A program made the position numbers and the translations under genes. Positions 14,957 through 25,671 of a stretch of DNA of 64,000 nt are shown here, piece by piece (position 1 is the first letter of the stretch; the number at the start of each line of letters is the position of its first letter). This stretch comes from Armatimonadota bacterium (lineage in GTDB: Bacteria; Sysuimicrobiota; Sysuimicrobiia; Sysuimicrobiales; Kaftiobacteriaceae), in contig JAVKHY010000004.1 in assembly GCA_031459765.1 (NCBI GenBank), forward strand, positions 1 through 64,000, read 5' to 3'. The notes under the pieces were generated by a model. The model saw only the letters and a list, made by a program, of their open reading frames with translations, searched no databases and had not been told where the DNA came from.

Positions 14957-15666
14957 GGTCACAGGCGCCCTCCGGCGGCAGCGGTGTTCTGCTGGAGGTC
15001 CGTGCGGTCTCCAAGTCCTACGGGCGGAGGCGGGCCCTGAGCGGGGTGTCGCTGACTGCAGGGGTCGGGCGGGTCGTGGCGGTGCTGGGGCCGAACGGCG
15101 CCGGAAAGAGCACCCTGCTGCGGATCGCGGCCGGCATCACCCGGCCCGATGCAGGCGAGGTCCGGGTGGGAGGGCATCCGGCGGACGACGCCGGGGTGCG
15201 GCGCCGGATCGGCTTCGCCGGCCACCAGTCCCTCCTTTACGGGGCCCTCACCGTGGAGGAGAACCTCCGCTTCTATGCGCGGCTCTACCGTCTCGATCCA
15301 GACCACATCGAGGAGGGACTGACCCGCTTCGGCCTGCTCCCGCACCGTCGGCGGCCGGTCCACGAGCTCTCCCGGGGACTCGTCCAGCGCGCCAGCCTGG
15401 CCCGCGCCCTCCTGCACCACCCGCCGGTCCTGGTGTTGGACGAGCCCTTCACCGGCCTGGACGCCGACGGCGCGGCGGTGCTGCAGGGAGTGATCACCGA
15501 TCTCCGGGCCCGGGGCGGGGCGGTCCTGCTGGCCACCCACGCCTGGGCGGAGGCCCGCGACCTGGCGGACGAGGCGGTGGTCCTGGTGGGCGGACGGCTG
15601 GCGCTGGCTGATGAGGCGGAGGCGGTGGACGCCGGACGCCTCGCCGCCGTCTACGGCCTGTCATGA
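14953..15666 (+). CDS. ccmA: heme exporter ATP-binding protein CcmA
   Basis: CcmA is the ATPase of the CcmABCD complex that releases holo-CcmE during System I cytochrome c maturation. The 237-residue ABC protein has Walker A GPNGAGKST, Q-loop GHQSLLYG, a variant signature LSRGLVQR in place of LSGGQ, and Walker B VLVLDEPFTGLD. GTG 14953 overlaps the previous stop, and the end overlaps ccmB by 4 nt. The assignment depends on the following ccmB-F genes. Confidence 0.9.
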   Translation: MRSQAPSGGSGVLLEVRAVSKSYGRRRALSGVSLTAGVGRVVAVLGPNGAGKSTLLRIAAGITRPDAGEVRVGGHPADDAGVRRRIGFAGHQSLLYGALTVEENLRFYARLYRLDPDHIEEGLTRFGLLPHRRRPVHELSRGLVQRASLARALLHHPPVLVLDEPFTGLDADGAAVLQGVITDLRARGGAVLLATHAWAEARDLADEAVVLVGGRLALADEAEAVDAGRLAAVYGLS

Positions 15667-16310
15667 ACGGGTTCTGGGCGGTCTTCCGGAAGGATCTCCT
15701 CATCGAGTGGCGCGCCCGGGACCTGCTGCCCCCGATGGTCGTGCTGGCGCTTTTGCTGCTGGCCGTCACGGGCGCGGCGGGGGCCGGAGCCCGGAGCGCG
15801 CCGGCGATGCTGTGGGTCACCGTGGCCGTCGCGGCCGCGTTCGGCCTGCTGCGCAGTTTTCAGCAGGAGACCGAACGGGACCAGCTGCACGGATTGCGGC
15901 TGGCGGGGGTGGATCCTGCGGCGCTCTACCTGGCGAAGGCGGCGGCGAACTTCGTTCTCGTGGGCACCGTGGAGATCATCGCCCTGGCCGCCGTCGTGGT
16001 CTTCTTCGACGTCTCGATCCCCCCGCGACCGGCGCTCCCGGCGGTGCTGGTGCTCGGCACCGCTTCCCTGGTGACCAGCGGCACGTTGCTGGGAGCGCTG
16101 CTGGCCGCGGCACGGGCACGGGAGGCGCTACTCCCCCTCCTGCTGCTCCCGCTGACGACCCCGGCCGTCGCCGCCGCCGCAGGCGCCACGGCCCGTCTGC
16201 TGTCGCCGGCGGGCGGGTCGGTGGTCGGGGAGATCCGGCTGCTGCTGGCGTTCACCGTGCTGTTCCTCGCGATCGCCGTGCTGCTTTTCGAGCACATCAT
16301 CGAGGAGTGA
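15663..16310 (+). CDS. ccmB: heme exporter membrane protein CcmB
   Basis: This 215-residue membrane protein has the CcmB opening FRKDLLIEWRARD, then about six hydrophobic segments, FSFQQETERDQ-like SFQQETERDQLHGL in the first cytoplasmic loop, and a C-terminal FEHIIEE tail. It partners CcmA. Start and stop both overlap neighbouring genes by 4 nt. Confidence 0.9.
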   Translation: MNGFWAVFRKDLLIEWRARDLLPPMVVLALLLLAVTGAAGAGARSAPAMLWVTVAVAAAFGLLRSFQQETERDQLHGLRLAGVDPAALYLAKAAANFVLVGTVEIIALAAVVVFFDVSIPPRPALPAVLVLGTASLVTSGTLLGALLAAARAREALLPLLLLPLTTPAVAAAAGATARLLSPAGGSVVGEIRLLLAFTVLFLAIAVLLFEHIIEE

Positions 16311-17032
16311 AGGCGGCGAACCGCTCTCGGGTCGCGGAGGTAGAAGGCTCCTCTTCGCCTGCGGCGAAGGGAGTCAGTCGGGGGTTGGGTATGGTGTTGC
16401 TGGTGTTGGCTGCCGTCGCCGTCCCCGTCGGCATTGTCCTCGCCTTGTTCGTCGCGCCGGTGGAGGCGGTCCAGGGCGAGCCGTACCGCATTCTCTACGT
16501 CCACGTGCCGAGCGTGACCGCCGCCTACCTGGCCTTCACCGTGACCTTCGTGGCCAGCGTCGTCTACCTCCTCACCCGGCGGATCCGCGTGGACCGTCTG
16601 GCCGCGGTCTCGGCCGAGATCGGCCAGGTCTTCCTGACCATCGTGCTCCTCACCGGCCCGATCTGGGGGAAGCCGGTGTGGGGGGTGTGGTGGACCTGGG
16701 ACGCCCGGCTTACCACCGCGCTGGTCCTGTGGTTCATCTTCGCGGGGTACCTGATGCTGCGGGCCTGGGCGGGACCGCAGGGAGCGCGGGCTGCGGCCGT
16801 GGTGGCGATCGCCGGGTTCCTGGACATCCCCTTGATCCACTGGTCGGCGGTGCTGCTGCGCACGTTGCATCCGCCGCCCACGGTCTTCCGTCCGGAGGGG
16901 CCCGCGCTGCCGCCTTCGATGCTCGTCATCCTGTCGGTCAACACCGCGGCCTTCCTGCTGGCGTATTTCGCGTTTCTGACGGTGCGGATGCGGCAGGAGG
17001 CCCTGCGCGACCTGCAGGAGGCGGCGCCGTGA
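16307..17032 (+). CDS. ccmC: CcmC, heme delivery to CcmE
   Basis: CcmC carries a tryptophan-rich periplasmic loop that presents heme to CcmE. The 241-residue protein has YRILYVHVPS with its conserved histidine, the WWTWDARLTT signature (GVWWTWD), and LIHWSAVLLRTLHPPPT with the second conserved histidine, within six membrane helices. GTG 16307 gives GTGA coupling to ccmB and a 28-residue cytoplasmic N-tail. ATG 16391 is an alternative, and a hairpin with 7-bp stem at 16353-16369 lies between the two candidates, so the start is uncertain. Confidence 0.9.
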   Translation: MKAANRSRVAEVEGSSSPAAKGVSRGLGMVLLVLAAVAVPVGIVLALFVAPVEAVQGEPYRILYVHVPSVTAAYLAFTVTFVASVVYLLTRRIRVDRLAAVSAEIGQVFLTIVLLTGPIWGKPVWGVWWTWDARLTTALVLWFIFAGYLMLRAWAGPQGARAAAVVAIAGFLDIPLIHWSAVLLRTLHPPPTVFRPEGPALPPSMLVILSVNTAAFLLAYFAFLTVRMRQEALRDLQEAAP

Positions 17033-17145
17033 TCTACGTCGCCGCCGCGTACCTGGTCACCCTGGCCGTGCTCGCCCTGTATGCGGGCTCGATCTGGCTG
17101 CGCCAGCGCCAGCTCAATCGCTCCGCGCCCGGAGGCTTCCGGTGA
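17029..17145 (+). CDS. ccmD: CcmD-like small membrane protein
   Basis: A 38-residue peptide with one N-terminal membrane helix (VAAAYLVTLAVLALYAGSIW) and a basic tail (LRQRQLNR), the classic CcmD pattern. CcmD helps the ABC complex release heme-loaded CcmE. It starts at GTG 17029 overlapping the ccmC stop and overlaps ccmE by 4 nt. Recognition rests on size, topology and position between ccmC and ccmE. Confidence 0.8.
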   Translation: MIYVAAAYLVTLAVLALYAGSIWLRQRQLNRSAPGGFR

Positions 17146-17528
17146 CGGCATCCCGCAGACTGGTGGCAGGCCTGGCCCTCATCGTCCTGGCCATTGCCGT
17201 CGTAGCCTACAGCGGGATCCGTTCGGCCGCGGTCTACTACCTGACGCCCACGGAGTTTGCCGGCCGTCCCGATCTCCGCCACGCGCAGGTCCGCCTGGCC
17301 GGGCGCGTCGAGTTGGGCAGCGTGCGCCGCCGGGACGGGCGGATTGAGGCCTTCACCATCGGCGACGGGGCCACGACGATCGAGGTGCGCTACGACGGCC
17401 CGCTGCCCGATCTCTTCGCCGAGGGGCGCGAGGTCCTGGTCGAAGGTCGGCTGGACGGGACCGTGCTGGCGGCAAGCCGGGTGATGACCACCCACCCCAC
17501 CGAGTACCGGGAAGCGCCCCCGCGGTGA
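17142..17528 (+). CDS. ccmE: heme chaperone CcmE
   Basis: CcmE carries heme covalently from CcmC to the CcmF ligase on the periplasmic side. The 128-residue protein has one N-terminal membrane anchor (GLALIVLAIAVVAYSGI), then a beta-barrel with VRLAGRVELGSV and VRYDGPLPDLF. The heme attachment motif HPTEY is near the C-terminus (His118, Tyr122), so this is the standard His-type CcmE rather than the CXXXY variant of some archaea and Gram-positives. GTG start within the ccmD stop. Confidence 0.9.
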   Translation: MTASRRLVAGLALIVLAIAVVAYSGIRSAAVYYLTPTEFAGRPDLRHAQVRLAGRVELGSVRRRDGRIEAFTIGDGATTIEVRYDGPLPDLFAEGREVLVEGRLDGTVLAASRVMTTHPTEYREAPPR

Positions 17529-19498
17529 GCACTCTGGGGAGTTTCGCGCTGCTCGCCGCCCTGGTCGTGGCGGCCTACGGACTGGTCGCCGGCCTGGCCG
17601 GACTCCGACGCCGGGACGACGCCCTGCTCGAGAGTTCGCGCCGGGCCCTGGTGGCGTGGGCGGCCTTCGCGGCGCTGGCCTCTGCGGCGCTGCTGGCCGC
17701 GCTGCTGACGAGGGACTTCTCGATCCGCTACGTGGCCGAGACGTCGAGTCGCGACCTCCCCCTCCTCTATACCGTCACCGCCTTCTGGGGCGGCCATGCC
17801 GGATCGCTCCTCCTGTGGGCGTTAGTCCTCGGACTCTACGGCGTCGCCGCCGCAACCCGCCTCAGACCGTCGGCGGATGCCCCGCTGGTCTTCCTCGTCC
17901 TGCTGGTCACGGCCGCGTTCTTCACCCTGACGCTGGTCCTGGGCAGCAACCCCTTCGCCTCGGAGCGGATTCCTCCGCCGGACGGGCGGGGGCTGAACCC
18001 CCTGCTGCGCAACCCGTGGATGGCCGTGCACCCTCCGGCGCTGTACCTGGGCTTCGTGGGGACCACGGTCCCCTTCGCGCTGGTGGTGGCCTCGCTGGTG
18101 CGCGGCCCCGGATCCCGGTGGCTCGAGGCCACGCGGGCGTGGATGCGTCCGGTCTGGTGCTTCCTGACCCTGGGCCTGCTGTTCGGCGCGAAGTGGTCCT
18201 ACGTCGTCCTCGGATGGGGCGGGTACTGGGCGTGGGATCCCGTGGAGAACGCGGCGCTCATGCCCTGGTTGACCAGCACGGCATTCCTGCACTCCGCGCA
18301 GGTGCACGGCTACGACGGCTCGCTGGGCGGCTGGACCAGGGCGCTGGTGCTGCTCACCTTCCTGCTGGCCATCCTCGGAACGTTCTTGACGCGCAGCGGC
18401 GTGCTGAGCTCGGTGCACGCCTTTGCGCACTCGACCGTCGGCGTGTACTTCCTGGCGTTCCTCACCGTCGCCTCCCTGGCGTCGTGCGCGCTGCTGCTCC
18501 GGAGCCGGAGGGAAGCGCGTCCGGCCGCGGACAGCGCGCTTCTGAGCCGGGAGGTCGCCTTCCTCGTGAACAACGTGCTCTTTGTCGTGGCCGTCGCCGC
18601 CGTGCTGTTCGGGACACTCTTTCCGCTCCTGGCCGAAGCGGTAACCGGGGACCGGATCAATGTCGGCCCGCCCTACTTCAACCAGGTGATGGTGCCGATC
18701 GTCCTCCTCCTGCTCCTGTTGATGGCCGTCGGACCGCTGCTGTCCTGGCGGCGCACCGATCCCCTGGTGTTGAGCAGGCGTCTGGCCCTGCCGGCCGCCG
18801 CCGGCGTGCTGTCGGCCCTCGCCGCCGCGGCGGCCGGCCTGCGACGGCCGCTGCCCCTGCTTCTTGTGGCCCTGGGCGTCCTTGCTGCCGCAACGACCGT
18901 CGGCGAGTTCGTCCGCGGCGCCGGCCTGCGGCGCAACCGCGGGCAGGCCTGGCCCGGGGCGCTCCTGCAGCTGGTCGGCCGGGGCCGGACGCGGTACGGA
19001 GGGTATCTCGTTCACCTCGGGGTGCTGATCATGCTGGCCGGCATTGCGGCGTCGTCGGCCTTCACGACGCGGGTCCAGGTGACGGTGGCCCCGGGGGAGC
19101 GGTTCCGCCTCGGCCGGTACGAGGTGCGCTACGACGGCGTCCGGGCGGTGGGCGGTCCCGGGCTGCTCATCACCGAGGCCCGCCTCACCGCCGCGGACGG
19201 CCGGACCCGGGTCGCGCTGCGGCCGCGCCACCTGCTCCACACGGTGAGCGACCAGATCACCGCCGAGGTGGCGATCCGCTCCAGCTGGCGCGACGACCTG
19301 TACGTCGTGCTGATCGGTCTGGCCGCCGACCGCCGTGCGACCTTCCGGGCGCTGCTCACGCCGGGAATGGCCTGGCTCTGGACGGGGGCGCTGGTCGCGC
19401 TGGCCGGCGGAGTGCTCGCGGCAACGCCGGCGCGCCGCCGCGTCCCGGCGCGGCAGGCCATGCCCGGGGCCGCAGTCGTCCCGGAAGGAGGCGGCTAG
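17525..19498 (+). CDS. ccmF: heme lyase subunit CcmF
   Basis: CcmF is the large membrane subunit that ligates heme to CXXCH motifs of apocytochromes c. The 657-residue product has many membrane segments and the WWD-type motif GWGGYWAWDPVENAAL, with conserved histidines in MAVHPPALYLGF, STAFLHSAQVHG and SVHAFAHST. GTG 17525 overlaps ccmE. No CcmG, CcmH or CcmI follows; the next gene is an unrelated-looking membrane-anchored protein. Confidence 0.95.
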   Translation: MSTLGSFALLAALVVAAYGLVAGLAGLRRRDDALLESSRRALVAWAAFAALASAALLAALLTRDFSIRYVAETSSRDLPLLYTVTAFWGGHAGSLLLWALVLGLYGVAAATRLRPSADAPLVFLVLLVTAAFFTLTLVLGSNPFASERIPPPDGRGLNPLLRNPWMAVHPPALYLGFVGTTVPFALVVASLVRGPGSRWLEATRAWMRPVWCFLTLGLLFGAKWSYVVLGWGGYWAWDPVENAALMPWLTSTAFLHSAQVHGYDGSLGGWTRALVLLTFLLAILGTFLTRSGVLSSVHAFAHSTVGVYFLAFLTVASLASCALLLRSRREARPAADSALLSREVAFLVNNVLFVVAVAAVLFGTLFPLLAEAVTGDRINVGPPYFNQVMVPIVLLLLLLMAVGPLLSWRRTDPLVLSRRLALPAAAGVLSALAAAAAGLRRPLPLLLVALGVLAAATTVGEFVRGAGLRRNRGQAWPGALLQLVGRGRTRYGGYLVHLGVLIMLAGIAASSAFTTRVQVTVAPGERFRLGRYEVRYDGVRAVGGPGLLITEARLTAADGRTRVALRPRHLLHTVSDQITAEVAIRSSWRDDLYVVLIGLAADRRATFRALLTPGMAWLWTGALVALAGGVLAATPARRRVPARQAMPGAAVVPEGGG

Positions 19499-20251: not shown

Positions 20252-21148
20252 ATGTCGGGTCTTCCCCGCCTGCTGGTCGTCCTGCTGGTCATCGGATCGC
20301 TTTCCGTCGCCGCCTGCCAGCCGACGGTCGATGTCTCGCAGGCGCTGGGGACAACGCCCCTTCCTTCGCCCGCGCCTCCGGATCCCAGGCTGGTGCCCGT
20401 CCGGCCCTCGGCCATCGAAGGCGCCCGGGTGTTCCAGCGGGCGCAGTGCGTGGTCTGCCACGGCTCCGAGGGGCGCGGCGACGGGCCGGCGGCCGCGAAT
20501 CTGCGCGCGCCCGGCAAGAACCTGATGACAGACTTCTTTGCCCTCCTGGGCATCCGGCTGCGCGGCGAGCCACTGCCCAGCCGTCCGGCAAACTTCCACA
20601 ACACCGTCGCGATGCGGTTGAACAGTCCCTTCAGCATGTACGAGACCGTGACCCGGGGCCGTCCCCACACGGCGATGCCGGCCTTCCCGCCGAAGGGCGG
20701 CAAGCCGGCCTACGGGGCCACCGCCTTCGGCGTGAACCTGACCGACGAGGAGCGCTGGCACGTCGTCTTCCATGAGTGGACCTACCAGAGTACGCTGGAG
20801 GAGATCCTGCGGGGGAAGCGCCTCTACGAGTCCAAAGCGGTCGAGATCGAGGGCTTTGCCGTGACCTGCGCCTCCTGTCACGGCACGGCGGGAGACGGCC
20901 GCGGGCCGCGGGGCCGACAGCTGGCGCGGCTGCTGTGGAACTGGTCGCGGGGCCAGGGTCCGGGGATCTTCACCGACATCAACCTCATGGCGCAGCGCAA
21001 GCCCAGCGAGCTGTACCAGGCCATCGTCGACGGACGGGGCCTGATGCCCGGCTACCGCGGCAAGCTGACCGACGACGAGATCTGGGCCCTGGTCAACTAC
21101 GTGTACACCTTTGTTTACGACTACCCGTGGCCCCAGACCGAGCGGTGA
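20252..21148 (+). CDS. diheme cytochrome c lipoprotein
   Basis: The 298-residue protein has a lipoprotein signal ending in LSVAAC (Cys22), then two class I cytochrome c domains with heme sites CVVCH (Cys66-His70) and CASCH (Cys206-His210). Methionine sixth ligands are likely in TAMPAFPP and GLMPGYRG. It should be anchored on the outer face of the cytoplasmic membrane and matured by the upstream Ccm proteins. Its place just before the Rieske gene suggests it is the electron acceptor subunit of that complex. Confidence 0.9.
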   Translation: MSGLPRLLVVLLVIGSLSVAACQPTVDVSQALGTTPLPSPAPPDPRLVPVRPSAIEGARVFQRAQCVVCHGSEGRGDGPAAANLRAPGKNLMTDFFALLGIRLRGEPLPSRPANFHNTVAMRLNSPFSMYETVTRGRPHTAMPAFPPKGGKPAYGATAFGVNLTDEERWHVVFHEWTYQSTLEEILRGKRLYESKAVEIEGFAVTCASCHGTAGDGRGPRGRQLARLLWNWSRGQGPGIFTDINLMAQRKPSELYQAIVDGRGLMPGYRGKLTDDEIWALVNYVYTFVYDYPWPQTER

Positions 21149-21160
21149 AGCCCCGGGGCG

Positions 21161-21190
21161 TTGCCGGAGGCCCGGGAAAGGCGGTATGGT
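21161..21190 (+). promoter_or_regulatory. candidate promoter giving a nearly leaderless Rieske transcript
   Basis: TTGCCG (21161-21166), an 18-nt spacer and TATGGT (21185-21190) lie so close to ATG 21200 that the message would begin a few bases before the start codon. No Shine-Dalgarno sequence is visible. The same TTGCCG hexamer and short leader occur at radC. Confidence 0.3.
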
Positions 21191-21199
21191 GATCTGGAC

Positions 21200-21868
21200 A
21201 TGAACGAGGCGTCTTCGACCCGGGTCAGGCGGCGCGGGTTCCTCAAGCTGGTCACGGCCGTCCCCGTAGCGGGCGCCCTGGCCGCCCTGGCCTCCCCGCT
21301 GCTGCGCCTGCTGAAGCCCAACGTCCCCAAGTTCGACCTCCTGCGCCCTACGGCGCCGGACACGGCGAGGGGCGAGGCGATCGTCGCCGCGTCGCTCTCC
21401 GAACTGCGGAACCCCTGGGACTTCAAGTACTTCGTCTTCACCCAGCGCTATCCGCAGTACACCCCGCAGGGGTTCAAGACGGCCAGCGTCCCGGGGGTGG
21501 CCGTGCGGCTGCCCTACAAGATCCGGCTGCCGCTGGACTGGGCGCAGGCCATCGGCAAGGAGCCCCCGGTCCGGGAGAGCGACATCATCGTCTTCTCCCG
21601 CATCTGCCCCCACCTGGGCTGCATCTACAACTACGTGCCGAACTACCGGGAGGTGACGGCGGGCTACGGCGGGTACGTGCCGCCGCCGCAACGGCAGCAC
21701 GCGCTCATGGCCTGTCCCTGCCACCTGAGCATCTACGACCCGGCCGACCGGGACGTCCCGGGACGCGTGCTGTCCGGACCGGCGCCCAGGCCGCCCCGGA
21801 CCTTCCTCTTCGAGATCCGGAACGCCGAGATCGTCGTCACCGACGTGGAACCCGGCGGGATCGCCTGA
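21200..21868 (+). CDS. Tat-exported Rieske iron-sulfur protein
   Basis: The 222-residue protein has a twin-arginine signal (RRRGFLKLVTAVPVAGA) forming the membrane anchor, and a Rieske domain with CPHLGC and ACPCHLS, which supply two Cys and two His to the [2Fe-2S] cluster. It accepts an electron from quinol at the outer quinol site and passes it to cytochrome c. It is followed 5 nt later by cytochrome b. Transport of such a protein needs Tat, and tatA and tatC are at 28427-29449. I chose ATG 21200 because the Tat motif follows at a normal distance. Confidence 0.92.
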   Translation: MNEASSTRVRRRGFLKLVTAVPVAGALAALASPLLRLLKPNVPKFDLLRPTAPDTARGEAIVAASLSELRNPWDFKYFVFTQRYPQYTPQGFKTASVPGVAVRLPYKIRLPLDWAQAIGKEPPVRESDIIVFSRICPHLGCIYNYVPNYREVTAGYGGYVPPPQRQHALMACPCHLSIYDPADRDVPGRVLSGPAPRPPRTFLFEIRNAEIVVTDVEPGGIA

Positions 21869-21873
21869 ACGGT

Positions 21874-23007
21874 ATGTGGGAACGCCTGCGGGACTGGGTC
21901 CGCGAACGCCGCGAGCACCTCAACCTCTTCGACGAGACGCTGGTGGCCCGGCAGGACAACCCCATGTACCTGCTGGGTCCGCTGCTGTACTACTTCTGGC
22001 TGATCACGGTGGTCACGGGCGTCGTGTTGATGATCTGGTACGAACCGACCACCGCCGGGGCGTACACCTCGATCGAGCGGATCCAGCGCGAGGTCCCGCT
22101 GGGCTGGCTCATCCGCGGCCTGCACAAGTACGCGGCGGACGGGGTCATTCTGACCATCATCCTGCGTATCTACCGGATGTACTTCCTGGGCGAGTATAAG
22201 AAGCCGGGCGAGCTGTCCTGGATGCTGGGCTTCCTGGGCCTGATCCTGGCCATGATCTCGGGGATCACCGGCTACCTGCTGATCTGGAACCAGCGGGCCT
22301 TCTGGGCGGCGAAGACGGTGCTCACCGTCCCGGTGTACTTCGACGAGCTCCCGGTGATCGGCCGGATGGGCTTCGGCTCCATGATCGCCTACATCTTCCT
22401 GGGCGGGCCGGCCATCGGCCAGGCCACGATCACCCGATTCTATGCCATCCACTTCGGGATCTCGCTGGTCCTGCTCATCCTGATCGAGGTGTTCTTCCAG
22501 CGCACGCGGCGCAAGCGCATCAACATGTCCCTGCTGCCCATCGTGCTCTTCCTGGCCATGCTGGTGGTGATCAGCTACATCCTCCCCGCCGAGTCCGGCC
22601 GGCGCGCGGACCCGACGCGCACGCCGCTGCCGATCCTCTCCGACTGGTACTTCCTGGCCCTCTACCAGTACGTGAAGTACACGCCGCCGCTGTGGGCCGG
22701 GCTCGGGCCGGGTCTGCTCATCGGCTACGGGATGCTGGTGCCGTTCCTGGACCGCAGCAAGGGCCGGCGGCCCCTGGAGCGTCCCTTCTTCTTTGTCGTC
22801 GGGGTGATGGCCCTGCTCTACTTCCTGGCCTTCACGACGCTCATTCTGTTCAACATCGCGGTGATCGAGCGCGAGCCCTTCATCATCATGAACCTGACCG
22901 CCGTCATCCTGGTGCTGGCCTTCCTGTGGGAGCTGCGCTATCGGCGTCGCCAGCGGACGGCGGCGCCCCCGCCGGCGCCGGCCGCGGGCGGGGCGGCGGG
23001 GCACTGA
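21874..23007 (+). CDS. cytochrome b subunit lacking one pair of heme ligands
   Basis: The 377-residue protein joins a cytochrome b6-like N-half to a subunit-IV-like C-half with SDWYFLALY, a variant of the PEWY quinol-site motif. Of the four heme ligand histidines expected, His84 (GLHKYAAD) and His193 (YAIHFG) remain, but the partner in helix B is Arg98 (LRIYR, codon CGT) and the partner in helix D is Phe207/208 (EVFFQ). In cytochrome b6 numbering the retained pair binds the heme near the outer quinol site and the lost pair binds the inner heme. A single b heme is therefore predicted. Confidence 0.88.
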   Translation: MWERLRDWVRERREHLNLFDETLVARQDNPMYLLGPLLYYFWLITVVTGVVLMIWYEPTTAGAYTSIERIQREVPLGWLIRGLHKYAADGVILTIILRIYRMYFLGEYKKPGELSWMLGFLGLILAMISGITGYLLIWNQRAFWAAKTVLTVPVYFDELPVIGRMGFGSMIAYIFLGGPAIGQATITRFYAIHFGISLVLLILIEVFFQRTRRKRINMSLLPIVLFLAMLVVISYILPAESGRRADPTRTPLPILSDWYFLALYQYVKYTPPLWAGLGPGLLIGYGMLVPFLDRSKGRRPLERPFFFVVGVMALLYFLAFTTLILFNIAVIEREPFIIMNLTAVILVLAFLWELRYRRRQRTAAPPPAPAAGGAAGH

Positions 23008-23009
23008 CG

Positions 23010-23270
23010 ATGCGGCTCCTCTCGATCGTCGCCGCCTTTGTCCTCGCCCTGGGGGCGTTGAGCCGGGGGTGGGCGGCGTTGCGCCGGGCCTGGGCGCAGC
23101 CCACGCCGGAGGCCGCGGCGGCGACCCTGCTGTACGCCCTGGTGTTCGTGCTGATGTTCCTCTACCTGGGGTTCTGGGTGTACAGGGCCGATCGCGCCGC
23201 AGGGAAGGTGGTGCGGACGATCGGCCTCTACGAGCGGATCCTCAGGCGAAGGGAGGGCCGCGTTGGCTAA
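23010..23270 (+). CDS. small two-helix membrane protein in the cytochrome b cluster
   Basis: I do not recognise this 86-residue protein. It has an N-terminal hydrophobic helix (LLSIVAAFVLALGAL), a short basic segment, a second helix (TLLYALVFVLMFLYLGFWVY) and a basic C-tail (YERILRRREGR). There is no heme or metal motif. It begins 3 bases after the cytochrome b stop and overlaps the next small gene, so it is probably an accessory subunit of the same complex. Confidence 0.65.
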   Translation: MRLLSIVAAFVLALGALSRGWAALRRAWAQPTPEAAAATLLYALVFVLMFLYLGFWVYRADRAAGKVVRTIGLYERILRRREGRVG

Positions 23271-23463
23271 CCGTCTCCTCCCCGGCGTGATCCTGGCGTC
23301 CCTGGTGGCGCTGCTCGCCGCCGCGGGCATCGTCTACGGCGAGGCCACCGACCGCTGGTTCTTCGGGGGGGCGATGATCGGCGTCCTGCTGCTGGCCTAC
23401 TCGGTCCTCCTCCTCCTGCTGCGGAAGATGGGCATCCTCGGCCCCCGGAAGGCGGAGCGATGA
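23263..23463 (+). CDS. second small two-helix membrane protein
   Basis: A 66-residue protein with two membrane helices (GVILASLVALLAAAGIVYG and FFGGAMIGVLLLAYSVLLLLL) and a basic C-terminus. TTG 23263 follows a GGGAGGG ribosome site at normal spacing and overlaps the previous gene by 8 nt; the stop overlaps the next cytochrome b gene. Family unknown. Conservation of the tight overlaps suggests it is made with the respiratory complex. Confidence 0.62.
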   Translation: MANRLLPGVILASLVALLAAAGIVYGEATDRWFFGGAMIGVLLLAYSVLLLLLRKMGILGPRKAER

Positions 23464-24671
23464 CGATCGCCCTGCAGCCCGGCCCCGCTCCCAGGACCGC
23501 CGTGCGCGGCCGCTACGGCCGGCTCATGACCTGGCTGCTCCGCGCCACGCTGCGGCTGGATACGGCGATCCACCGGATCTGGCCCACCGACTACAACCCG
23601 CTGTACTACACCGGAGGGCTGGCCAACCTCTTCCTGCTGATCCTGGTCCTCTCAGGACTCTTCCTCTTCTTCTATTATGAGGCCAGCCTGGGCGGCGCCT
23701 TCGACTCGGTCCGGTACATCACCGAGGGGGTGCCCTACGGCGGGATCATCCGCGGGGTCCACCGCTACGCCGCCGACGCCTTCATCGTCGCCGTCCTGCT
23801 GCACCTCTTCCGCAACTGGTTCACCGACCGGTACCTGTTCAGCCGCGACAACCCCTGGATCTCCGGGATGTTCCTGCTGGTCTTCGGGGGCTTCGTCGGC
23901 GTCACCGGCTATCAACTGATCTGGGACGAGCGGGCCCAGGTGCTGACCGGACTGTTCCTGGGCCTGCTGCGCTCGATCCCCGGGGTGGGGGACCCTCTGG
24001 CCCGGATCTTTCTGGGCGGCGCCGGGGTCAGCGACGGGACGCTCGTCCGGATTCTGTTCCTGCACATCGCGCCGGCGTCCACGCTGTACGTCCTGCTCTG
24101 GTGGCATTACCTGCGCCTGCGCCATCCGAAGATCTGGCCGCCGGCCACCTGGGTCCTGTTCAGCGTCGGACTGATCTTCCTGCTGGCCGGCATCATCCCG
24201 GCGCGGGGCGGCGAGCCCGCCGCCCCCGGCGCACGCCCGACGGGATTTCCGCTGGACCTCTTCTTCCTGCTGCCGTTCTGGCTGCTGAACTGGATCCCCC
24301 CCGGGGGCATGGTGGCGGCGCTGGCGCTGCTTGTGGTGCTCGGCCTGGCCATCCCCTACGTCGGGCGGCGCGAGCACCCGGAGGCGATGAACGTCCGCCA
24401 TGCCGGCGTGGCCCAGGTCATCGACGGCAACTGCACCGGCTGTGAACTGTGCTACTACGACTGCCCCTACAACGCCATCATCATGGTGTCCTCGCCGGCG
24501 CCCGGCCTGTCCCGGGCCGCGGCCAACCGCACCCTGCTGGCCGTCGTGCTGGAGTCCCGCTGTGTGGAGTGCGGGATCTGCGTGGGGGCGTGTCCCTTCG
24601 AGGCGCTCGAGCTCCCGGGGTTTCTGGAGCGCGACGTCAAGCGCCTGGTGGCGGAGGCGGTCCGTGCCTGA
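23460..24671 (+). CDS. cytochrome b fused to a dicluster ferredoxin
   Basis: The 403-residue protein has a cytochrome b N-terminal domain with all four heme ligands (His101 and His115 in GVHRYAAD/LLHLFR; His202 and His216 in FLHIAP/WWHYLR), followed by further helices with a degenerate quinol motif (LDLFFLLPFW). The C-terminal 90 residues carry two [4Fe-4S] motifs, CTGCELCYYDCP (Cys325-335) and CVECGICVGACP (Cys368-378), facing the cytoplasm by the predicted topology. It can thus connect membrane hemes to soluble low-potential carriers. It is followed by an MvhD-like gene in an 8-nt overlap. Confidence 0.9.
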   Translation: MTIALQPGPAPRTAVRGRYGRLMTWLLRATLRLDTAIHRIWPTDYNPLYYTGGLANLFLLILVLSGLFLFFYYEASLGGAFDSVRYITEGVPYGGIIRGVHRYAADAFIVAVLLHLFRNWFTDRYLFSRDNPWISGMFLLVFGGFVGVTGYQLIWDERAQVLTGLFLGLLRSIPGVGDPLARIFLGGAGVSDGTLVRILFLHIAPASTLYVLLWWHYLRLRHPKIWPPATWVLFSVGLIFLLAGIIPARGGEPAAPGARPTGFPLDLFFLLPFWLLNWIPPGGMVAALALLVVLGLAIPYVGRREHPEAMNVRHAGVAQVIDGNCTGCELCYYDCPYNAIIMVSSPAPGLSRAAANRTLLAVVLESRCVECGICVGACPFEALELPGFLERDVKRLVAEAVRA

Positions 24672-25134
24672 GAGGACGGCGGCGGCTGGCGAGTGGCCGA
24701 AGATCGTCGGATTCGTCTGCGACTGGAGCGTGGATCTGGCTCCGCTGGTGGAAGCCGGTCGCCTGCGGGAGCTGCCCAACGTGCGGATCATCCGCATTCC
24801 CTGCTCGGGGTTCGTGCGTCCGGCCTGGCTGGAGGACGCCCTGGGCCGCGGCGCCGACGGTGTCTTCGTCACCGGGTGCCCCTATGGAGACTGTCTCAAC
24901 CGAGAGGGCAACTACCTGATGCGCGACCGGGTCGATCAGCTGCAGCGTCGCCTGGTGCGCCGGCGCATCGACCCGGCCCGGCTGGCCATGCTGGCCCACG
25001 GGCTGCACGACGGGCAGGCATTCCTGGCCGAGATCCGCGCCTTCGTCGAGCGGCTGCGGGCGCTTCCGAAAGCCGCCGCCGCGCGTCCGCCTCAGGCGCC
25101 CGCCGCCGCGTCCGCCACGGAGGGAGAAGGCTGA
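24664..25134 (+). CDS. MvhD/FlpD-like iron-sulfur electron-transfer protein
   Basis: The MvhD family passes electrons between hydrogenases or dehydrogenases and heterodisulfide reductase through a [2Fe-2S] cluster. The 156-residue protein matches in FVCDWSVD (Cys19), RIPCSGFVRP (Cys47), DGVFVTGCPYGDC (Cys72, Cys77) and EGNYLMRDRV. The usual CNWCSY motif is CDWS here, so the second cysteine of that motif is serine and cluster ligation may differ. GTG 24664 overlaps the ferredoxin-cytochrome b gene. It probably docks on that protein's ferredoxin domain. A low-complexity Ala/Pro C-tail follows residue 135. Confidence 0.78.
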   Translation: MPERTAAAGEWPKIVGFVCDWSVDLAPLVEAGRLRELPNVRIIRIPCSGFVRPAWLEDALGRGADGVFVTGCPYGDCLNREGNYLMRDRVDQLQRRLVRRRIDPARLAMLAHGLHDGQAFLAEIRAFVERLRALPKAAAARPPQAPAAASATEGEG

Positions 25135-25241
25135 TGAGGCGGCGCCCGCTCAAGGTGATCCTGCTCTACGTCCTGTATTACCTCTTCTGGTTCCTCCTGT
25201 TGACCTTCGTGGCATCCTTCGGACTCATTGCCGAGACCTAG
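25134..25241 (+). CDS. single-helix 35-residue membrane peptide
   Basis: A basic N-terminus (RRRPLK) followed by one long hydrophobic helix rich in tyrosine and phenylalanine (VILLYVLYYLFWFLLLTFV). A good ribosome site (GGAGGGAGAAGG) precedes ATG 25134, which shares its first base with the stop of the MvhD-like gene. Such peptides are common accessory subunits of respiratory complexes. No specific function can be assigned. Confidence 0.6.
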   Translation: MRRRPLKVILLYVLYYLFWFLLLTFVASFGLIAET

Positions 25242-25281
25242 ACGCATCCGAGGACATCCGATCCGGCAGAAGGAGGGAGAG

Positions 25282-25671
25282 ATGGCTCATCGCTTCTGGC
25301 TGGCCGTGCTGGTGCTCGCCGTCCTGACGCTCTCCGCCTGCGGACCCGGCGGCGGGGGGGGACCGAGCGGGGGAGGGGCGCCGCCGACCGGAGGAGGGGG
25401 TGCCGGCGGAGCGGTCAGCGTCACCGAACACGAGTGGGCGATCGAGATGCCCAAGGAAGTGCCCTCAGGAACGGTCACCTTCACCGTGAAGAACGACGGC
25501 GCCGTGGAGCACAACTTTGTGATCCAGGAGACCGGCCAGCGCCTGGACGGCATCATGCCCGGACAGACCAAGACCTTCCAGGTCACGCTGCGGCCGGGTA
25601 CCTACACGATCGTCTGCGACATCCCCGGCCACAGCGAGGCCGGGATGAAGACGACGGTCACCGCGAAGTAG
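25282..25671 (+). CDS. cupredoxin (plastocyanin-like) lipoprotein
   Basis: The 129-residue protein has a lipoprotein signal ending in LTLSAC, a glycine-rich linker (residues 22-46), and a type 1 copper domain. Ligands are visible as His in VEHNFV and Cys, His and Met in VCDIPGHSEAGM. It should be a mobile but membrane-tethered one-electron carrier on the outer face. Its position directly after the Rieske/cytochrome b cluster suggests it takes electrons from that complex or the diheme cytochrome. ATG 25282 follows AGGAGGGAG. Confidence 0.88.
   Translation: MAHRFWLAVLVLAVLTLSACGPGGGGGPSGGGAPPTGGGGAGGAVSVTEHEWAIEMPKEVPSGTVTFTVKNDGAVEHNFVIQETGQRLDGIMPGQTKTFQVTLRPGTYTIVCDIPGHSEAGMKTTVTAK

Follow-up and report, generated by a model that had tools for sequence, protein, structure and literature searches.

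We describe here a cytochrome b, cytb1, which keeps both histidine ligands of its outer heme and an intact quinol-oxidation (Qo) motif, but which lacks both ligands of its inner heme, as do all the relatives found. As judged from the sequences, it is encoded in an operon of fixed order with a four-histidine cytochrome b fused to a ferredoxin domain (cytb2) and an FlpD-like iron-sulfur protein. By its fold, operon and Qo motif, the complex is assigned to the Rieske/cytochrome b group, though as neither an ordinary bc1 nor an ordinary b6f complex. The window, i.e. the whole stretch of 64,000 nucleotides that was analysed, belongs to a 2.8-Mb genome of the phylum CSP1-3/Sysuimicrobiota, which has 'Armatimonadetes bacterium CSP1-3' and 'ANGP1' as named members and has been described under the name Sysuimicrobiota (PMC11604079). 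The main text of that paper mentions neither complex III nor a Rieske protein, and it is possible that parts of the operon have been described earlier elsewhere in the literature. The features of cytb1 are the following:

21874..23007, plus strand: cytb1, 377 aa, cytochrome b of eight helices; quinol site present, ligands for the outer heme only
22123..22125, plus strand: His84 codon, outer heme (bL/bP) ligand in helix B
22165..22167, plus strand: Arg98 codon, helix B position of the inner-heme (bH/bN) ligand
22450..22452, plus strand: His193 codon, outer heme ligand in helix D
22492..22497, plus strand: Phe207-Phe208 codons, helix D positions of the inner-heme ligand at bc1 and b6f spacing
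22639..22653, plus strand: SDWYF, Qo motif, the PEWY equivalent, invariant in cytb1

The protein matches both halves of cytochrome b in Pfam (PF00033, E 2e-33; PF00032, E 2e-6) and thus contains the b6-like N-terminal and the subunit IV-like C-terminal parts expected of a bc complex, as well as a PEWY-like motif, SDWYF. Its closest sequence match in the PDB is cytochrome b6. An AlphaFold model (mean pLDDT 79.5, pTM 0.79, from an alignment of 43 sequences) superimposed on bc1 cytochrome b with Z scores of about 18-23 and an rmsd of about 4-8 Å over 308-336 residues. In a bc complex, the quinol-oxidising cytochrome b carries four histidines that bind two b hemes; cytb1 has only two membrane histidines in total. 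The preliminary description had reported His84 and His193 as retained, with Arg98 and Phe207/208 at the inner-heme positions, and both the open reading frame and the alignments agree with this. Arg98 lies at offset +14 in helix B. In helix D, Phe207 is found at +14, the spacing of bc1, and Phe208 at +15, the spacing of b6f, so that neither of the two possible inner-ligand positions is occupied by histidine.

The same pattern was found throughout the family. Among 81 distinct full-ORF sequences, a count that may include some near-identical entries twice because their start codons differ, and in which two pairs of loci (L124/L136 and L110/L137) each come from the same organism, position 98 was Arg in 71 and Lys in 10, and position 207 was Tyr in 55, Phe in 20, Leu in 4, Met in 1 and Trp in 1. 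Position 208 was also considered as a ligand at the b6f spacing; it was Phe (73), Tyr (3), Ile (3) or Val (2), but never His. The outer ligands, His84 and His193, were present in 81/81. By comparison, none of the 25 control cytochromes b (an initial 21, including several encoded in other genomes of the CSP1-3 phylum, and 4 more) lacked any of the four histidines. Substitute histidine ligands were sought in helices B and D and none was conserved, nor did any other position of the family form an alternative conserved histidine column. The alignment thus gave neither of the results that would have spoken against the earlier claim of a targeted loss: no other histidine at ligand distance in these helices and, among the 81 relatives, none with the inner-heme histidines. 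Because the same two positions are non-histidine in all relatives while the outer ligands and the quinol site are invariant, the sequences strongly support the specific loss of one heme rather than decay.

Two other explanations of the missing ligands were weighed. A local sequencing error, pseudogene or misassembly at 21874-23007 is ruled out for practical purposes. We found no point in its favour, the same substitutions recur in independent assemblies of several lineages, and the frame is open; furthermore, comparison with a congener gave a dN of 0.065 against a dS of 0.46 (dN/dS about 0.14), which indicates purifying selection. It is also conceivable that Lys98 and/or Tyr207 act as unusual ligands and still hold the inner heme in cytb1. 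In bc1, a b heme can be ligated by a His-Lys pair (PMC4807273), and Lys98 and Tyr207 occur in 10 and 55 relatives, respectively. Yet most sequences have Arg98, position 207 in CSP1-3 is frequently occupied by Phe, Leu, Met or Trp, and no pair of alternative ligands is conserved in the family, making this explanation very improbable.

The genes around cytb1 indicated the type of enzyme to which it belongs. The operon encodes, in order, a diheme cytochrome c, a Rieske protein, cytb1, one or more small membrane proteins, cytb2 with its ferredoxin domain and FlpD:

20252..21148, plus strand: diheme cytochrome c lipoprotein, two CxxCH motifs; Pfam PF13442/PF00034 in two stretches
21200..21868, plus strand: Rieske [2Fe-2S] protein with a Tat-like RRxFLK signal; alternative start at 21161
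23004..23270, plus strand: small hydrophobic protein between cytb1 and cytb2; start uncertain
23460..24671, plus strand: cytb2, four-histidine cytochrome b with degenerate Qo region and a 2x[4Fe-4S] ferredoxin fusion; PF00033 and Fer4 families
24432..24593, plus strand: ferredoxin domain, cytb2 residues 325-378, two CxxCxxCxxxC motifs
24664..25134, plus strand: FlpD/MvhD-like iron-sulfur protein, GTG start assumed; PF02662, E 6e-30
25228..25671, plus strand: cupredoxin-like protein adjacent to the operon; PF13473, E 5e-9

A Rieske protein and a c-type cytochrome are thus encoded alongside cytb1, as in bc complexes. The Rieske protein gave no Pfam match at E 1e-3, though all cluster ligands are present (CPHLGC and CPCHLSIYD, both conserved), and its match by phmmer was the Rieske protein SoxF (1jm1, E 3e-5); it represents a divergent Rieske family. 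In the diheme cytochrome c, which is the likely exit for high-potential electrons, both CxxCH motifs, the lipobox cysteine C22, M142 and M265 are conserved in CSP1-3. The cupredoxin-like gene is present at many, but not all, CSP1-3 loci, and its product is a possible electron acceptor. A small ORF similar to that between cytb1 and cytb2 occupies this place at most CSP1-3 loci and, weakly, at several Vampirovibrionia loci. Just upstream of the complex, at 14991-19498 of the window, are ORFs whose translations, inspected by eye, resemble the cytochrome c maturation proteins CcmA, B, C, E and F. Elsewhere, the genome encodes two full-length COX1 homologues, and a ccoN-like gene lies downstream of the operon in one CSP1-3 family.

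Homologues of cytb1 were found in 39 of 43 genomes of CSP1-3/Sysuimicrobiota. A scan of 84,980 species revealed relatives with 39-45% identity in Melainabacteria/Vampirovibrionia. Among these organisms is Vampirovibrio chlorellavorus, which has no cytochromes b of this family apart from cytb1 and cytb2. Strong matches (E < 1e-50) were present in 78 of 289 Vampirovibrio-class genomes, usually behind cbb3-oxidase genes; ccoN and ccoO, which encode a C-family oxygen reductase, are directly upstream at nearly all Vampirovibrionia loci. A wider sample of 386 genomes added one further cytb1 lineage (genome G440, locus L203), with Arg at position 98 and Tyr at position 207 and also with ccoN and ccoO directly upstream. 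In this single genome, the whole module lies behind ccoN-ccoO on one contig (L203, 1095-9761), which makes it a good candidate for structural work. The length of the protein varies: the Vampirovibrio copies have about 440-500 residues, and the Obscuribacter-like ones (L125-L135, L138-L142) have a C-terminus extended by some 200 residues, giving about 600 aa compared with about 380 in CSP1-3.

The gene order is common to CSP1-3, Vampirovibrionia and L203. Wherever a CSP1-3, Vampirovibrionia or Obscuribacter-like locus is uninterrupted by the end of its contig, cytb1 is succeeded by cytb2, and FlpD comes next in all cases where the contig reaches far enough. Conversely, in one CSP1-3 genus, four genomes are without cytb1, and these are also without cytb2; an ordinary cytochrome b with PEWY (L161) is encoded in one of the four, G013. 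This consistent succession in three lineages and the joint absence in one genus support cytb2 as the partner of cytb1. The preliminary description had proposed the neighbouring four-histidine cytochrome b for this role, and the proposal has gained genomic backing; that the two proteins form one physical complex is the part that we still infer.

Unlike cytb1, cytb2 has all four heme-ligating histidines, in 78 of 78 copies, and its model has the fold of bc1 cytochrome b (Z 21-26). Its Qo region is degenerate, W144, Y259 and the serine having been lost, whereas cytb1 retains SDWYF together with FWA(A/T)K. Each subunit thus has the half that is missing from the other. The cytb2 motif still contains Asp and often Trp, from which the site may perhaps not be wholly dead. 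Six membrane helices are predicted ahead of the ferredoxin domain, and this topology would place the domain on the cytoplasmic side. Its eight cysteines are conserved, with a single substitution among 62 complete copies of cytb2. In the FlpD-like protein, which matches MvhD in the PDB (5odc, E 6e-21), Cys19, Cys47, Cys72 and Cys77 are conserved, as in the FlpD/MvhD family. In a tree, cytb1 and cytb2 each formed one clade and stood side by side with support, though with a warning of long-branch attraction, for which reason we do not claim that they are a sister pair derived from a duplication.

These observations led us to propose the following mechanism. Quinol would give up its electrons at the Qo site of cytb1. 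The first electron would pass via the Rieske cluster to the diheme cytochrome c and on to an oxygen reductase, and the second would enter heme bL, the sole heme of cytb1. Since there is no inner heme in cytb1, this low-potential electron would have to cross to cytb2, from bL across the dimer interface to the bL and then the bH heme of the partner. From there it would leave to the fused 2x[4Fe-4S] ferredoxin and FlpD on the cytoplasmic side, and/or to a quinone beside that heme. The heterodimer, the bL-to-bL step, the direction of the electrons and their final acceptor are what we infer from the arrangement of genes and ligands. We give an even chance to a Rieske/cytochrome b enzyme of this kind, in which the chain of b hemes is split over a cytb1-cytb2 heterodimer, with a bL-to-bL crossing and an exit to the cytoplasm and/or to quinone. 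The stricter proposal of an obligate heterodimer that bifurcates the electrons of quinol, one going to O2 via cytochrome c and the other through the two bL hemes to ferredoxin/FlpD, is tentative, and we would lean somewhat against it. The ferredoxin/FlpD module, on which the preliminary description did not remark, likely alters the destination to be expected for the electron. In the searches bearing on quinone type, no MqnA was found, and no MenD above the cut-off.

There are precedents for parts of this scheme. Known bc1 and b6f complexes, which share with the cytb1 locus the fold, the outer heme ligands, the Qo region and an operon with Rieske protein and cytochrome c, are homodimers with both hemes in each cytochrome b; here the quinol-oxidising cytochrome b is without inner heme and the second one has both. 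Cytochrome b6f is furthermore split into b6 and subunit IV and has a cysteine in helix A (heme cn), whereas cytb1 is a single 377-aa chain without cysteine and the cysteines of cytb2 are confined to the ferredoxin domain. The closest functional analogy is with the B-B/BS-B fusions of R. capsulatus bc1 (H212N with G158W; PMC4330944). In these, one half has no inner heme and the other no working Qo site, so that, as proposed for cytb1/cytb2, the bL-to-bL crossing is compulsory, and the engineered enzyme turns over through this bridge (PMC4330944). The fusions are, however, a laboratory construct with output at the Qi site only, while the natural system consists of diverged paralogues with ferredoxin and FlpD.

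For Rieske/cytochrome b complexes of anammox bacteria, it has been proposed that the low-potential electron is diverted to a reductase in the cytoplasm (PMC12954380). The Kuenenia operons Kustd1480-1485 and Kuste4569-4574 are similar in that they combine Rieske/cytochrome b with a cytoplasmic Fe-S oxidoreductase proposed as low-potential acceptor, but the models of those complexes are homodimeric, contain both b hemes and include a flavin NAD(P) reductase, and the genes are other than those of CSP1-3 (PMC12954380). No FAD/NAD(P) oxidoreductase subunit is encoded in the present operon, which has only the ferredoxin domain and FlpD. The Melainabacteria 'PetB/PetC' proteins encoded beside O2 reductases (PMC6349859) probably belong to the same operons, the Vampirovibrionia loci being also behind ccoNO; in the accessible part of that paper, they are annotated as b6f subunits, with no mention of the missing ligands, the ferredoxin fusion or FlpD. 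The operon FlpD is of the same sequence family as the FlpD/MvhD of heterodisulfide reductase-hydrogenase complexes, but the operon contains no HdrA or hydrogenase gene, an HdrA/FlpD/ETF-like cluster being found elsewhere in the genome. This cluster (L199, 23-7540, contig C2) encodes ETF alpha, CCG/Fe-S proteins, an HdrA-like flavoprotein and a second FlpD; it likely stands for a flavin-based electron-transfer complex and is a possible soluble partner. Another contig of the same genome (C3; L072, 3513-4595) carries a third cytochrome b, with four histidines but very divergent (29-31% identity) and with PPWPF in place of the Qo motif; no Rieske gene was seen nearby.

The same operon and the same chain of cofactors could also work with the ferredoxin/FlpD module as an inlet. 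In the same heterodimer, reduced ferredoxin or a flavoprotein would then feed electrons into FlpD, from which they would pass via the ferredoxin domain of cytb2 to its inner heme. A quinone at this heme would take up one such electron together with one arriving from the Qo site, the whole amounting to a built-in ferredoxin:quinone reductase combined with a Q cycle. We regard this as the main rival because strong reduction of ferredoxin may be costly, electrons having to move toward the negative side against the membrane potential with a Rieske protein of ordinary potential. As an inlet, the electron flow is energetically downhill, and ferredoxin is a plausible donor, in that a complex I without NuoEFG that may use ferredoxin is reported for Melainabacteria (PMC6349859). 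On the other hand, an inlet alone gives no reason for the loss of the inner heme from cytb1, and no Qi-site residues were verified in cytb2, so that we consider it rather unlikely. Alternatively, cytb1 might not bifurcate at all: both quinol electrons would leave through the Rieske protein, bL would be structural only, and cytb2-ferredoxin-FlpD would be a separate enzyme from the same operon. The contact between the two cytochromes b is indeed putative, and the distance-matrix (mirror-tree) correlation of cytb1 with cytb2 (0.91) is matched by a barely lower value (0.88) with a neighbouring control gene, so that this comparison does not tell a partner from a mere neighbour. Yet the outer heme ligands of cytb1 would not be expected to be invariant, nor its linkage to cytb2 to be strict in every complete locus and accompanied by joint absence, which makes a non-bifurcating cytb1 improbable.

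The question of whether electrons cross from one bL to the other in the bc1 dimer has been debated mainly on the basis of asymmetric mutants made by engineering. The pair cytb1/cytb2 appears to be a natural enzyme in which this step would be compulsory, so that the question could be tested in an unmodified protein. If ferredoxin/FlpD is the output, a coupling of aerobic quinol oxidation to cytoplasmic reduction would be added, and if the bifurcating reading is true, this would be a new coupling site, linking quinol oxidation to the reduction of a low-potential carrier. Furthermore, many non-photosynthetic relatives of cyanobacteria have a complex III that is annotated as b6f and that may differ from an ordinary Q-cycle enzyme.
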